From positions 1 to 22,639 of the IMG/VR virus record IMGVR_UViG_3300040931_000021: 22,639 nucleotides of DNA. One strand, written 5' to 3'. Below the pieces are notes generated by a model. That model made no database searches and was not told the origin of the DNA. It saw only the letters and a program-made list of their open reading frames with translations. A program made the translations under genes and the position numbers. Shown here in pieces: positions 1,973 to 20,748 of the stretch (position 1 is its first letter; each line of letters begins with the position of its first letter). Source of the DNA: a virus.

Positions 1973-2014
1973 ATCACCAACCTCACTTAGCGGGGCGCAA
2001 GTGTTGTTGGTGAT
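1973..2014. promoter_or_regulatory. Back-to-back ribosome binding sites forming an inverted repeat
   Basis: The two divergent genes start only 52 bases apart (1966 leftward, 2019 rightward). Their SD regions mirror each other: ATCACCAAC (1973-1981) and GTTGGTGAT (2006-2014) are perfect complements, and each has an AAGTG farther out. Nearly all of the gap is thus used by translation signals, leaving no room for two separate promoters within it. Confidence 0.55.
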
Positions 2015-2018
2015 TGGC

Positions 2019-3947
2019 ATGTTGAAGAAACTGCGTGAGTTAGTGCGAAAGTGGCTTTACCGAGACGCTGCGGGGGATATTTACCTCTTTGACACCGACA
2101 CGCCTAAGTCTCCATTAGCCGACATTATCCGCAACCCTATCGTGCGGGCTGCCTTAAGTCGCATTAGCAACTCAGCCGCTTCCGTGCCCTTGCTCGTTTA
2201 CAACGGCGAGTTTGAGTTAAGCGAAGACGACCCAAACTTCGGGCACTTAGCCAAATCCGTCGCCGTCGGAATTAGCAACAACGACTTTACCGCTACCGCC
2301 GCAACCGACCTAATTGTCTTCGGCAACTCCTACTGGCTCATCCGCAAGGTCGGGCGACGCTATCTCGGGCTTGATTACATTCACCCGAGCCACATTAGTT
2401 TCAGCGTTGACGGCAAAGAAGCACAAATCATGACCGCCGACCGAGTTATCAACATATCGGTTGAAGACTTAGTGCACTTCAAACTACCCGACCCGACCGA
2501 CCCTAAAGCACAAGGCTTATCGCTCCTTTACTCAATCCAAAACGCCGTAACCTTAATTAACGAATGCGACCGCCTGTTAGCCGAGTATCTCTTTCACGGC
2601 GCACAGCCCTTAACTATCCTAATCACTAAGTCTTCATTGCCCGAAACGACCAAACAGCGCATAATTGAGCGCATTCAAAGTAGGCACGGGCGAGGTCAAC
2701 GCTTCAAGTGGCTACTCCTTGAAGGCTCGGATTACGAGACCAAGACGATAGACACTTCCTTTAAGGCTGGCGACTTAGTTGAAATGCGCCGAATTCTGCG
2801 AGAGGAAATCTTAGCCTGCCTTAATGTGCCGCCTGCCGTCGTCGGGATTTACGAGTATGCCAACTACGCTAACGCTCGGGAGCAAACCAAGATTTTCTGG
2901 CGTGAGACAATAATCCCGCTACTTAGGCTGATTGAGGAAACCTTAAACACGCAATTTTTCCCGAAGGTCAACCCGCAACTTTGGTGCGCCTACGACCTCA
3001 GCCTCGTTGAAGCGCTCAAAGAGAATATCGCCGAAGTTGCTAACTCGTTGGGCAATCTCGTTGACCGAGGCATTATCACAATCAACGAAGCCCGTGAAGT
3101 GTTAGGCTTCCAAGACCCGCTTTCGTGGGGCGACGCTTGGTGGGGCAACCTCAATATCGTGCCTATCGCCCAACAAAAGCCACAGCAAACTAAGTCGGGC
3201 GACGAATTGATTGTCGTCACCAAGCGAATTCCCCGCACATACAGAGAAATGTGGCTCAAGTTTCTGCGGTTGCACGATAGGTATGAGCGCCATGTGCGGG
3301 AAGCAATCAAAGACTATGCACAAGACCTGCGCCGCCGCCTTAAATCCGACCTTAACGCCTACTTCCGCAAAGACATAACCGACTTTCTCTTTAACCTTGA
3401 CGAAGAAGCCGAAGAATTAGCAAAAATCTTGCTGCCCGCCTTAGAAGACATTCTCCGAGACACGCCTAAGGCGTTTGGCGTTGAAGTAGACCCGCTGATT
3501 TACGACGCTAAGGTTAAGGCACGCTTAATGACCTTCAAGCGCCGAATTCGCTGGATTACCGAAGCGACATGGGAGCAACTTAGGCAAAAACTTGGCGACG
3601 CTCTGGCGGAAGGTGGCGGTTGGAGCGACCTAATTGGTGCGGTTGAAGAAGTGCTCGGAGACCTTGAAACTTGGCGTGCCGAAAGGATTGCCCGCACGGA
3701 AACGACCGCAGCGCTCAACATGGGCTATGAGGAAAGCCTTAAAGCCACAGGCGTTAGGCGTAAAATGTGGGTTACCGCCCACGACGAAAGAGTGAGAGAG
3801 AGCCACCAACAAATGGAAGGCGTCGTTGTTGACTTAGACGACTATTTTGTACTACCTTCGGGCATTAGGCTTCGTTTCCCGTGCGACCCCGAGGGGCAAC
3901 CCGAAGAAGTTATTAATTGCCGTTGCACTATAGTGCCTGTAGACTAA
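2019..3947 (+). CDS. Portal protein fused to a MuF-like minor head domain
   Basis: 642 residues. The first ~390 match HK97-type portals: the ring through which DNA enters and onto which the tail docks; clues are the N-terminal KKLRELVRKWL, IGNPVVRA-like NPIVRAALSRIS, FGNSYWLI, and the stem region ending LNVPPAVVGIYEY...AREQTKIFW. The last ~120 match the SPP1 gp7/MuF minor head family: ARTETTAALNMGYEES (about 558-573), KMWVTAHDERVRESHQQMEG, and the terminal INCRCTI. MuF is usually a separate gene downstream of the portal; here both are one frame. The ATG at 2019 has GGTGAT five bases upstream and the CGCAAGTG motif at 1996-2003; a GTG at 2001 lies in that leader. First gene of the rightward block. 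Confidence 0.93.
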   Translation: MLKKLRELVRKWLYRDAAGDIYLFDTDTPKSPLADIIRNPIVRAALSRISNSAASVPLLVYNGEFELSEDDPNFGHLAKSVAVGISNNDFTATAATDLIVFGNSYWLIRKVGRRYLGLDYIHPSHISFSVDGKEAQIMTADRVINISVEDLVHFKLPDPTDPKAQGLSLLYSIQNAVTLINECDRLLAEYLFHGAQPLTILITKSSLPETTKQRIIERIQSRHGRGQRFKWLLLEGSDYETKTIDTSFKAGDLVEMRRILREEILACLNVPPAVVGIYEYANYANAREQTKIFWRETIIPLLRLIEETLNTQFFPKVNPQLWCAYDLSLVEALKENIAEVANSLGNLVDRGIITINEAREVLGFQDPLSWGDAWWGNLNIVPIAQQKPQQTKSGDELIVVTKRIPRTYREMWLKFLRLHDRYERHVREAIKDYAQDLRRRLKSDLNAYFRKDITDFLFNLDEEAEELAKILLPALEDILRDTPKAFGVEVDPLIYDAKVKARLMTFKRRIRWITEATWEQLRQKLGDALAEGGGWSDLIGAVEEVLGDLETWRAERIARTETTAALNMGYEESLKATGVRRKMWVTAHDERVRESHQQMEGVVVDLDDYFVLPSGIRLRFPCDPEGQPEEVINCRCTIVPVD

Positions 3948-4029
3948 GGTGGGGGCGACGCAGTGTTGACGGCGCTTAAGCCCAAAGTGGCTGGCGTCGT
4001 AAGCGGGTGCAACTCCCGCCGCCTCCACC
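3948..4029 (+). ncRNA. tRNA-sized, tmRNA-like structured element between portal and protease genes
   Basis: 3951-3957 GGGGGCG pairs with 4020-4026 CGCCTCC over 7 bp; the third pair is G:U, the alanine-tRNA and tmRNA identity feature, and A4027 sits at the discriminator position. A T arm lies directly inside: GCGGG (4003-4007), loop TGCAACT, CCCGC (4015-4019), differing from the usual TTCAACT by one base. After the acceptor strand comes GTGTTGACGG, close to the TTCGACGG D-loop of tmRNA. The span is 76 nt, but I find no D or anticodon stem; instead GACGC (3957-3961) can pair with GCGTC (3994-3998). No CCA is encoded (ACCT), and GGT/ACC extends the stem to 10 bp. It could be a mini tmRNA-like RNA, an mRNA processing site or a relic. 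Confidence 0.45.
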
Positions 4030-4056
4030 TTTCGCAAGTGACATTGGTGAGCGGTA

Positions 4057-5022
4057 ATGAAAGACATGCTCTACCTTGTCACAAAGCAGATTGAGAGCGA
4101 TAGCGGCGGGGAAATCTATTCAGGCATAGCCACGACGGCGGTTAAAGATAGGCTTAACGAAATCGTAAATCCGAAGGGCTGCATTAACCTTAATGACTAC
4201 CTTGCTAACCCCATACTTCTTTGGCAACACGACCCCAACCGCCCTATCGGTAAAGTTATCAATGTTGAAGTCTCCGACGACGCAATTAAGGTTGACTTCG
4301 TTTTTGCTTCTACGCAGTTTGCGCAGGAAATCAAACAACTCGTAGACGAAGGCATTGTGCGGGGTCTTAGCATAGGCTTCATTCCCCGCAGAATTGAAGG
4401 TAACACCTATGCGGAATGGGAGTGGATTGAGACTTCGGTTGTGACGCTCCCAGCCAACCCGCAAGCATTAATTCAAAAGGAGGGCGATAGCGACATGGAG
4501 TTAGTGAAGAAAGGCATTGTGCCTGACGACGACGCTGAGTTTCCGCTTTACGAGGATTTTGAGCGGGAGTGGGATGCTGACGAAAGCGAAAAGCGTTGGC
4601 GTGAGCATGTTGGCGTAGAAACTAACGAGGATTTGCAAGACAAGGAAAAGCAGCGCAAGTATGCCAAACGCTTCTTTTGGGCTGACGACGAAAGACTTGA
4701 TAACTTCGGCGCTTACAAACTCCCGCATGTTGATGTGATTGACGGAAAGCCCTACGCTATTTGGCGGGGCGTCGTCGCTGCTATGGCGGCGCTCTTAGGT
4801 GCTCGTGGCGGGGTTGATATCCCCGAAGAAGACCGAGAAAAGGTCTATCGGGCGATTGTTAAGTATTATCGCAAGGCGGATAAAGAGCCGCCCGAGTTTC
4901 GCAGTTACACGCCTGAGGAATTGGCGTGGCTTGAAGCGTGTGAGTGGGAAAATCCAATCGCCTACATTCGCAAGTCGCTTGAGCAATTGCGCCGAGAGTT
5001 AGAAAAGGCGCTTTGCAAGTGA
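4057..5022 (+). CDS. HK97-type prohead protease with extra C-terminal domain
   Basis: 321 residues. Residues 1-140 are the S78-type prohead protease that trims capsid delta domains: His58 in LLWQHDPNRPIG, Ser105 in RGLSIGF, and WIETSVVTLPANPQA (123-137) are the usual catalytic and core blocks. Residues ~160-290 form a second domain: WDADESEKRW, FFWAD, YKLPHVDVIDGKP, and AMAALLGARGGVDIP followed by YRAIVKYY, seen by me only as an appendage to phage head proteins and of unknown job. An internal start at 4495 can express it alone (see separate entry). SD GGTGAG precedes ATG 4057; the CGCAAGTG motif is at 4033-4040. Located between the portal and capsid genes as expected. Confidence 0.9.
   Translation: MKDMLYLVTKQIESDSGGEIYSGIATTAVKDRLNEIVNPKGCINLNDYLANPILLWQHDPNRPIGKVINVEVSDDAIKVDFVFASTQFAQEIKQLVDEGIVRGLSIGFIPRRIEGNTYAEWEWIETSVVTLPANPQALIQKEGDSDMELVKKGIVPDDDAEFPLYEDFEREWDADESEKRWREHVGVETNEDLQDKEKQRKYAKRFFWADDERLDNFGAYKLPHVDVIDGKPYAIWRGVVAAMAALLGARGGVDIPEEDREKVYRAIVKYYRKADKEPPEFRSYTPEELAWLEACEWENPIAYIRKSLEQLRRELEKALCK
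4495..5022 (+). CDS. Predicted nested C-terminal protein from internal start in the protease gene
   Basis: An in-frame ATG (codon 147) would give 175 residues beginning MELVKKGIVPDDDAEFPLYE. The upstream AAAAGGAGGGCGATAG (4475-4490) is an exceptional SD and matches base for base the one before the unrelated gene starting at 21715 on the other strand, apart from two extra bases before the ATG. Inside a protease frame such a site is not expected by chance. In lambda, protease gene C contains the scaffold gene Nu3 in the same arrangement, so a scaffold-like or capsid-associated role is a reasonable inference. The product is rich in charged residues but also has a compact YKLP...LLGARGG core, unlike a pure coiled-coil scaffold. 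Confidence 0.55.
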   Translation: MELVKKGIVPDDDAEFPLYEDFEREWDADESEKRWREHVGVETNEDLQDKEKQRKYAKRFFWADDERLDNFGAYKLPHVDVIDGKPYAIWRGVVAAMAALLGARGGVDIPEEDREKVYRAIVKYYRKADKEPPEFRSYTPEELAWLEACEWENPIAYIRKSLEQLRRELEKALCK

Positions 5023-18882: not shown

Positions 18883-20748
18883 TTAATAAGCGATGAGGTA
18901 AAACTCGTTAAACAGCAGCACTTGATTTTGCACAGCGACATAGAGCGCTCCCGTTGTGCCTTTCGCTAAGACCCGCACGATTTTGATTTCGTCACTATCA
19001 TTTTCAAGCACAAGTAATTGCCAAGTGTCGGCGACGATTGAAGAAAGGTCTATTGTGTCGCCACTTGTAACTTCGGGGTTACTGACTAAGTGCTCGGAAA
19101 GTGGGGTTAGGCTAACTTGTGCAAAACTTAAGTCGCTTGAGCGTTTAACAGCGACAAGCAATTTTTGTCGTGGCGCAACGAAGAAGTCTTTGACGACTGC
19201 AAGGTTGGCGTTTTTGGGAGTGAGTTTGAAAGTCGCTGGATTAGGCAGTAACGACGAAGGTGGCACTTCCGTGTCTTCTGACTGAATTATCCCGCCCGAC
19301 TGGAATTCCTGCTCCCTAATTACCGTGCTACCGACCTTTTTGTTGACGAAGCGCACCTTAGGCATGTCATAACCGAAAGCGTCGTTGAAAGTGTAAGGCT
19401 CAAGCCATGTGCCATACAACTCGCAATTTTGATAATCAGTTAAAACTAACCCTCCCGTAGCAATCCAATCAAATCGGTTTCGCAAGGTCGTGCTGTAACC
19501 CAACGCAGAGTAGTTGTAAAACTTGCAATTGCGGAAAATATTGCGGTTAAGGTTGGGCGTGCTAAAGTCGTGGAAAATGTGCAACCCATAAATCGTGCTA
19601 TCTTCAACAATGTGATAAACACTTTGTCGGGGGCAAAAGTTGAAAATCGTGCAATTTTTCATGCTAATCTTGTTTGACAGGTTACCCCACGGATACCAAT
19701 CCCAAACATGTGCGTTTTCTATTGAAATGTTGCCCGCTGAGCCCCAAAGTAAAGACGGAGTGCACAACACACCACCTACATGGCGTGTGTTGTTGTTTGC
19801 TTGTAAGTGAGTGCCACAATGATAATAAACGGTCGGGTAAGTTACATATACAAAGATACCGAAGACATTGATGCTATTGAAATGCGGAAGCAATGTAGTG
19901 TAGGAAATATTGTCATCAGTAATATTTGCACGCAATAAAAAGTATCCTGCCGAAATGTTTGGTGTATAATCCCAAACCCACCTTAAACCTGACACGATTA
20001 TGTAATCCGACACCGTTGCACTCGCAATCACATTATAACTCGTTGAGTTGTTAACAAAATGAAGCGTAATTGGTCGGTTAACCTTAGCAACCCACGCACC
20101 TGCAGGATAGTCGTGAGGTAAAGAAGCGCTCAAAGTTAATGTGTTGCCACTAACGGCGGTCACTTGCGCTAAGTGGGGGAAAATAACCGAAGTTTGCATT
20201 TCAGCCGCAGGCAACCGAGGCAACATTACCCAATCCCCAACCTGCCAGTTTAAATTCTCACTCACAGTAATTTGCGTCGCCCCGCTGCTTGCTGCCGAAG
20301 CAAGCGTCGTGATAAAGCGATAGTAGCCTTGACTGCTATCATATGGCACATTGGGAGAGCCTACAAACGAAATCTCAGCGTTGTTGTCATACAAAGCAAA
20401 ATGATAGCCCGCAGTTGTTTTCATAATCGTAACTCTAACGGGCATGGGGTTGGTCGGAGTGCCAACAATGAGTTTGCCCGTGCTGCGAATGCGGATATAG
20501 CCTTTAAAGCGCAATCTAAGCGGTTGCGTGGCGTTAGTGTCAAATTGAAGCGTGCCTCTAATGTCAACATCTAACGAGTTACCCGCTGTGCCTAACTCAA
20601 CATCGGCGCTGCTACCTTCAACCACATCGTAAATGACGGTATGCCCCGACGAAATAACTACTTGGTCGCCCGCAGCGGGCAATCGGTTTAAATCCCAAGT
20701 AGAAGCACTACTCCAGTTTCCTGATTGCACGCTTGTCAAGACAGCCAT
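18883..20748 (-). CDS. G8-domain and right-handed beta-helix protein, possible tailspike or glycan-acting enzyme
   Basis: 621 residues. The start SGNWSSASTWDLNRLPAAGD then VVISSGHTVIYD is the G8 signature (spaced glycines, aromatic-W and GDxVxI), continuing to ~residue 120 with LDVDIRGTLQF and GKLIVG. Residues 155-230 have an ATQITVSENLNWQVGDWVML and AQVTAVSGNTLTLSASLPHD module. Residues ~240-500 have short Asn-rich turns (FRNCKFYNYS, MKNCTIFNF, VEDSTIYGL) typical of a beta helix. The G8/beta-helix architecture is that of CEMIP-type glycan enzymes and many tailspikes. No signal peptide. GGGGGTGA precedes ATG 20748. It is odd that it lies among replication and small regulatory genes. Confidence 0.75.
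   Translation of the reverse strand: MAVLTSVQSGNWSSASTWDLNRLPAAGDQVVISSGHTVIYDVVEGSSADVELGTAGNSLDVDIRGTLQFDTNATQPLRLRFKGYIRIRSTGKLIVGTPTNPMPVRVTIMKTTAGYHFALYDNNAEISFVGSPNVPYDSSQGYYRFITTLASAASSGATQITVSENLNWQVGDWVMLPRLPAAEMQTSVIFPHLAQVTAVSGNTLTLSASLPHDYPAGAWVAKVNRPITLHFVNNSTSYNVIASATVSDYIIVSGLRWVWDYTPNISAGYFLLRANITDDNISYTTLLPHFNSINVFGIFVYVTYPTVYYHCGTHLQANNNTRHVGGVLCTPSLLWGSAGNISIENAHVWDWYPWGNLSNKISMKNCTIFNFCPRQSVYHIVEDSTIYGLHIFHDFSTPNLNRNIFRNCKFYNYSALGYSTTLRNRFDWIATGGLVLTDYQNCELYGTWLEPYTFNDAFGYDMPKVRFVNKKVGSTVIREQEFQSGGIIQSEDTEVPPSSLLPNPATFKLTPKNANLAVVKDFFVAPRQKLLVAVKRSSDLSFAQVSLTPLSEHLVSNPEVTSGDTIDLSSIVADTWQLLVLENDSDEIKIVRVLAKGTTGALYVAVQNQVLLFNEFYLIAY

Follow-up and report, generated by a model that had tools for sequence, protein, structure and literature searches.

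A predicted phage RNA gene corresponding to the tRNA-like domain of tmRNA and its relatives across viruses

A compact RNA element in the head-gene region

The window analysed here is a 22,639-nucleotide stretch of viral DNA (IMG/VR record IMGVR_UViG_3300040931_000021, positions 1 to 22,639). Between its portal and head maturation protease genes, the latter followed by the major capsid gene, lies a 77-nt element that, from its sequence and fold, we identify as a small phage RNA gene consisting of the tRNA-like domain (TLD) of tmRNA alone:

2001–3947, plus strand: portal protein fused to a MuF-type head morphogenesis domain (PHROG 2662/12/2468), upstream neighbour
3948–3950, plus strand: 5′ leader GGT, able to pair with ACC at 4027–4029 and so lengthen the stem by 3 bp; common to the window clade (sequence of near relatives)
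3951–4027, plus strand: predicted TLD-only (CDS-less) tmRNA, 77 nt (R1 covariance-model match, also in 12 near relatives)
3951–3957, plus strand: acceptor stem 5′ strand GGGGGCG, G3 at 3953, pairing with 4020–4026
3958–3969, plus strand: D-loop region without a stem, A18 and G19 at 3962–3963, then TTGA(C) (sequence; A18/G55 link across the family)
3970–3999, plus strand: P2 arm, CGGCGC 3970–3975 / GCGTCG 3994–3999, with an internal loop and an apical hairpin at about 3979–3992 (double changes in near relatives and family)
4003–4019, plus strand: T arm, GCGGG 4003–4007 / CCCGC 4015–4019, loop TGCAACT 4008–4014, G55 at 4009 (sequence, fold, model match)
4020–4027, plus strand: acceptor 3′ strand CGCCTCC 4020–4026, U70 at 4024, and discriminator A73 at 4027 (sequence)
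4028–4030, plus strand: 3′ trailer CCT; CCA in relatives L005, L006, L007 and L018 (sequence)
4057–5022, plus strand: head maturation protease (PHROG 80), downstream neighbour

PHROG annotation of the neighbours revealed no integrase adjoining the element, and no promoter-like site was found near it. Elsewhere in the window, 18883–20748 (minus strand, opposite to the structural genes) encodes a protein of 621 aa whose only match, a weak one, is to tail assembly.

The element has a folding energy of −47.6 kcal/mol, and 199 of 200 shuffles fold less strongly (z −3.8). A full 7-bp acceptor combined with a 5-bp T arm and its T-loop is found at a single place in the window, and one of 100 shuffles contains such a combination. 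The original prediction, made from the letters alone, had read the 7-bp acceptor with its G:U third pair (G3953-U4024, the G3-U70 position), the 5-bp T stem with loop TGCAACT and the discriminator-like A4027 correctly; its total of 76 nt is one nucleotide short. GTGTTGACGG lies at 3963–3972. In the D-loop region, TTGA(C) is the counterpart of GG..TTCGAC in tmRNA. The 30 nt from the D region to the T-arm linker form a single closed arm, P2, whose helix is joined directly to the T arm and which stands where the mRNA-like domain and pseudoknots of tmRNA would be. No tag reading frame, resume codon, stop or pseudoknot occurs between 3970 and 3999, in agreement with the predicted absence of the coding and pseudoknot parts. 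The fold has neither D stem nor cloverleaf, and ARAGORN made no call on the element. The original prediction overlooked P2 as a third arm. Position 4000 is a U here and a G in relatives. The pairing of the leader 3 bp into the 3′ ACC, also noticed beforehand, is present; in the window copy it could get in the way of RNase P and of adding CCA.

At gathering scores, the window element reached no Rfam family. The tmRNA model (RF00023) gave 16.2 bits against a gathering score of 47 and, at relaxed thresholds, caught mainly the 3′ half; the tymovirus tRNA-like structure (RF00233) gave a weak 17-bit match. RAGATH-21 (16.5 bits, threshold 70.3) and Caulobacter CC3552 (17.9 bits, threshold 50) were rejected. 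A full tmRNA from an Omnitrophota MAG (L253) has an acceptor and T arm identical to those of the window element (GGGGGCG...GCGGGTGCAACTCCCGCCGCCTCCA).

Compensatory changes in near relatives

Portal searches identified near relatives whose portals are about 93% identical. Apart from the window, 12 of them have the element, in every case immediately 5′ of the protease gene. Compensatory change in related phages, which the original prediction had named as a check, is present: pair cells are 99.6% intact and two P2 pairs show double changes (P2 is, for instance, CGACGC/GCGTCG in most near relatives and CAGCGC/GCGCTG in L008), while sliding controls gave zero double changes. G3-U70 is retained in 11/11 distinct near relatives.

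The element is absent from 24 more distant portal relatives. In two distant portal relatives that lack it (L014:1698–1740 and L012:5996–6040), the same place holds an apparent plain hairpin, and after it comes a stretch, TTTCGCA or TTTTCGCA, resembling that 3′ of the window element. Six of the 12 near relatives also have a small cysteine-containing gene (MKVEVFSCRFCGEE...) between the portal-MuF gene and the element (L002:2733–2990, with the same place occupied in L003, L007, L010, L015 and L018); it is lost or reduced in the others, with a remnant in L004/L009. The L002 copy has no PHROG match, and in L007 and L010 the frame extends into the element.

A family of TLD-only elements in viral genomes

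Pattern scans of viral contigs were used to collect similar elements. A first pattern, comprising only the acceptor G3-U70 frame and the T arm, matched tRNA-Ala genes and many elements of about 75–80 nt without an ARAGORN call; a second, with TCGAC in place of the 5′ acceptor, found many more. Together, the scans yielded at least 119 distinct elements, not counting those of the window clade. We aligned 45 diverse viral elements, leaving out the window and its clade, and built a covariance model (R1), which carries 18 uninformative positions from an artificial 18-nt anchor used in the MAFFT alignment. The acceptor, P2, P2 hairpin and T arm are 96.1% paired in this alignment, with 237 cells changed on both sides (70 in shuffles) and a covariation score of 0.596 (0.115 in shuffles). 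Because acceptor and T-stem pairing was partly required at collection and P2 pairing was not, P2 carries the weight of the covariation; it is 93.7% paired, with double changes in five of its six pairs.

R1 matched the held-out window element with 49.9 bits (E 2.2e-10), its sole match in 22.6 kb, so the element belongs to the family, although its score is lower than that of most members. We consider the element itself and its kinship with tmRNA very likely on this comparative evidence. Full elements were also matched by R1 in the isolated phages Streptomyces LuckySocke, Stenotrophomonas Jojan60 and Pontimonas phiPsal1 (52–64 bits), where they have no RNA-gene annotation. Of 16 loci bearing family elements that were tested with the Rfam tmRNA model, 12 exceeded its gathering score, in matches lacking the entire mRNA domain, and members scored 52–71 bits with RF00023. 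The P2 cap reads AA/AG then CC in 92 of 109 family elements, and GGAC stands 5′ of the T arm in 92/109; these conserved motifs suggest a single family, as opposed to repeated independent truncation.

Matches to the 3′ half found by BLAST in myco-, Gordonia and enterobacterial phages were, among those inspected, ssrA-type attachment sites and not members. A tRNA-like piece of Lactococcus phage jm2 (936 type; L556:345–437) was rejected at 18.6 bits with broken pairs; it has a good T arm and a broken acceptor, is unannotated and lies near the genome end, and BLAST matched it to 22 records of Lactococcus phages. Three of 194 cyanobacterial genomes contained a match, which argues for a mainly viral element. 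In one cyanobacterial chromosome contig (Leptolyngbya sp. SIOISBB, L205:5341–5423), a TLD-only element lies in a tRNA array directly upstream of tRNA-Cys.

Conservation of tmRNA identity elements

G3-U70 with A73 constitutes the alanyl-tRNA synthetase identity and is kept in all ssrA (PMC3968760). To count these positions, we used a scan pattern that contained no acceptor base and considered elements with a 7-bp acceptor: G3-U70 and A73 were each present in 66/66 elements, and in 31/31 at loci new to that scan, whereas pair 4 of the acceptor varies freely (GC, CG, AT, TA or GU) in the same 66. CCA is encoded in 21 of 88 family elements, so most would need CCA addition.

SmpB binding requires the interaction between the D- and T-loops (PMC3968760). 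Positions 18 and 55 of these loops covary across the family, U55 occurring with G18 and G55 with A18 (Fisher p 5e-20; six G55 cases scored as GG by the script are AG at the fixed position). The window element has the A18 (3962) and G55 (4009) form. A18 likewise accompanies G55 in full tmRNAs that have G55; the link came to light through a T-arm pattern search of genomes, whose matches were for the most part ordinary tRNAs, full tmRNAs or chance occurrences. The T-loop TGCAACT, accompanied by AG in the D-loop, is also found in many tRNA-Cys genes of bacteria (Patescibacteria, Verrucomicrobia and cyanobacteria; e.g. L158, L162, L186 and L187), an echo of this link. By sequence comparison, the window element keeps the fold and recognition elements of tmRNA: an acceptor with G3-U70/A73, a stemless D-loop with the GAC motif, D/T-loop pairing, P2 and the T arm.

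Genomic places of family members

Members occur in tRNA arrays (LuckySocke, L205, L419, L439, L447, L465 and others), beside tRNAs in Jojan60, in the head operon between protease and capsid in phiPsal1 and after an exonuclease gene in L308. Head maturation protease and major head protein are among the commonest families of neighbouring genes. Such varied places favour a trans-acting RNA over a local signal, and we consider the family element probably to be one. An SmpB gene was found in none of 30 carrier records, several of them fragments, so host SmpB must be assumed.

Proposed function and alternatives

We favour, as the best explanation of the whole, a TLD-only tmRNA that would be charged with alanine, bind SmpB and compete with host trans-translation, a reading we think moderately likely; for the antagonist mechanism taken separately, we see the chances as evenly balanced. 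Enzymes of the host that process tRNAs would excise the RNA from the late transcript of the head genes; it would then receive a CCA end and its alanine from AlaRS. The charged RNA could then bind host SmpB and EF-Tu in competition with host tmRNA, enter stalled ribosomes and take the nascent chain; as it would provide no resume codon, proteolysis tagging would be blocked or bypassed. In this way, the window element probably interferes with host ribosome rescue. Ribosome entry is proposed because the element is conserved as chargeable. A precedent is the TLD-only tmRNA reported in Mycobacterium phage DS6A (Mao et al. 2009, as cited in PMC4131195 and PMC11915505). A DS6A-like molecule is reported to be a strong inhibitor of tmRNA whether or not it can be charged, perhaps through SmpB titration (PMC4131195), and PMC11915505 places the inhibition of endogenous tmRNA in E. 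coli. Since this published inhibition does not need alanylation, yet G3-U70 is invariant in the family, we favour an active, ribosome-entering competitor over a passive SmpB sponge; the invariance suggests that a sponge is not the whole story. The alanylatable decoy or minimal tmRNA mimic raised in the original prediction fits best, given the held-out R1 match, G3-U70 invariance, D/T-loop covariation and the TLD-only phage precedent.

The main rival of an active competitor is a minimal rescue RNA without a tag, of the type suggested for mitochondrial tmRNAs that lack a tag frame: alanylated RNA and host SmpB would free stalled ribosomes with the addition of one alanine and no tagging, keeping phage translation running. 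The strict conservation of chargeability speaks for it, as do the retention of mitochondrial CDS-less tmRNAs together with SmpB and the tRNA arrays of some carriers, which thus supplement translation. However, the sole phage example tested, DS6A, is reported in those two sources as inhibiting tmRNA, and a release mechanism without a stop codon is not known. We regard the rescue role as unlikely, while taking it seriously.

Less likely still is a processing signal in cis, in which RNase P and 3′ tRNases would cut the fold to separate portal and protease messages and the released RNA would have no role. The portal–protease position in all near relatives and similar head-gene positions in other viruses would suit such a signal, but many members lie in tRNA arrays or elsewhere, more distant portal relatives do without the element, and cleavage needs no conserved G3-U70, A73, D/T-loop pair or P2 cap. 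Cleavage between the cistrons, as the original prediction suggested, may occur as a side effect of the competitor RNA; it does not account for the family.

A relic of recombination with host ssrA, or an attachment site in it, is highly improbable: phages do integrate in ssrA and tmRNA 3′ ends do adjoin integrases, but those cases comprise the 3′ end only, with no full element by R1, whereas the present element retains an intact 5′ end and an intact P2, both covarying, and has no integrase next to it. For the family, the compensatory changes refute this part of the original prediction. We likewise give very little credence to a divergent tRNA-Ala with an unusual anticodon arm, which would match G3-U70, A73 and the similar length, because ARAGORN calls no tRNA, the D stem is absent, the apical loop shows no consistent anticodon across the family and Rfam reports family elements as tmRNA, not tRNA.

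Significance and comparison with known systems

The TLD-only phage tmRNA is already known as a kind from DS6A, contrary to the original prediction that knew of no such phage element; what is new is the window member, together with evidence that such RNAs occur widely in phages and are kept there by selection. The 2025 tmRNA database holds 97,179 sequences, nine of standard form without a tag frame, and its paper names one phage case, DS6A (PMC11915505); beside it stand more than 100 distinct phage elements without an ARAGORN call, a lower bound from a simple pattern scan. A phage tmRNA survey (PMC9004378) is ARAGORN-based and would therefore miss family elements. It is an even question whether TLD-only tmRNAs form a widespread, ancient phage RNA class with its own P2 cap, selected for alanylation and SmpB-dependent ribosome entry, so that numerous phages without close kinship would use an RNA to govern host trans-translation or to take its place. 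If the elements act like that of DS6A, phages would commonly use RNA to interfere with ribosome rescue, the reason why phages carry tmRNA-like genes could be tested directly, and natural minimal TLDs would be at hand for SmpB and AlaRS work.

DS6A is a different phage, likened here by its published description; the inhibition reported is that of its RNA or a similar molecule. Full tmRNA (ssrA, RF00023) shares the acceptor with G3-U70, the stemless D-loop with the GAC motif, P2 and the T arm, and differs in having an mRNA-like domain, resume codon, tag and pseudoknots, at about 230–400 nt versus 77. The CDS-less tmRNAs of jakobid and oomycete mitochondria and of Mallomonadaceae plastids (the latter about 65 bp; PMC11915505) are likewise reduced by loss of the tag frame, but they are not from phages and the mitochondrial ones are usually permuted. 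Tymovirus tRNA-like structures of plant RNA viruses (RF00233) have the same T-loop UGCAACU on a pseudoknotted acceptor at the 3′ end of an RNA genome and are unrelated. A man-made molecule has nearly the same design: the T. thermophilus TLD crystal construct joins the 5′ 25 nt and 3′ 34 nt of tmRNA through UUCG (PDB 2CZJ, PMC3929946), whereas the phage P2 is longer and has its own conserved cap. A TLD with SmpB is a working tRNA mimic in vitro (PMC3929946).
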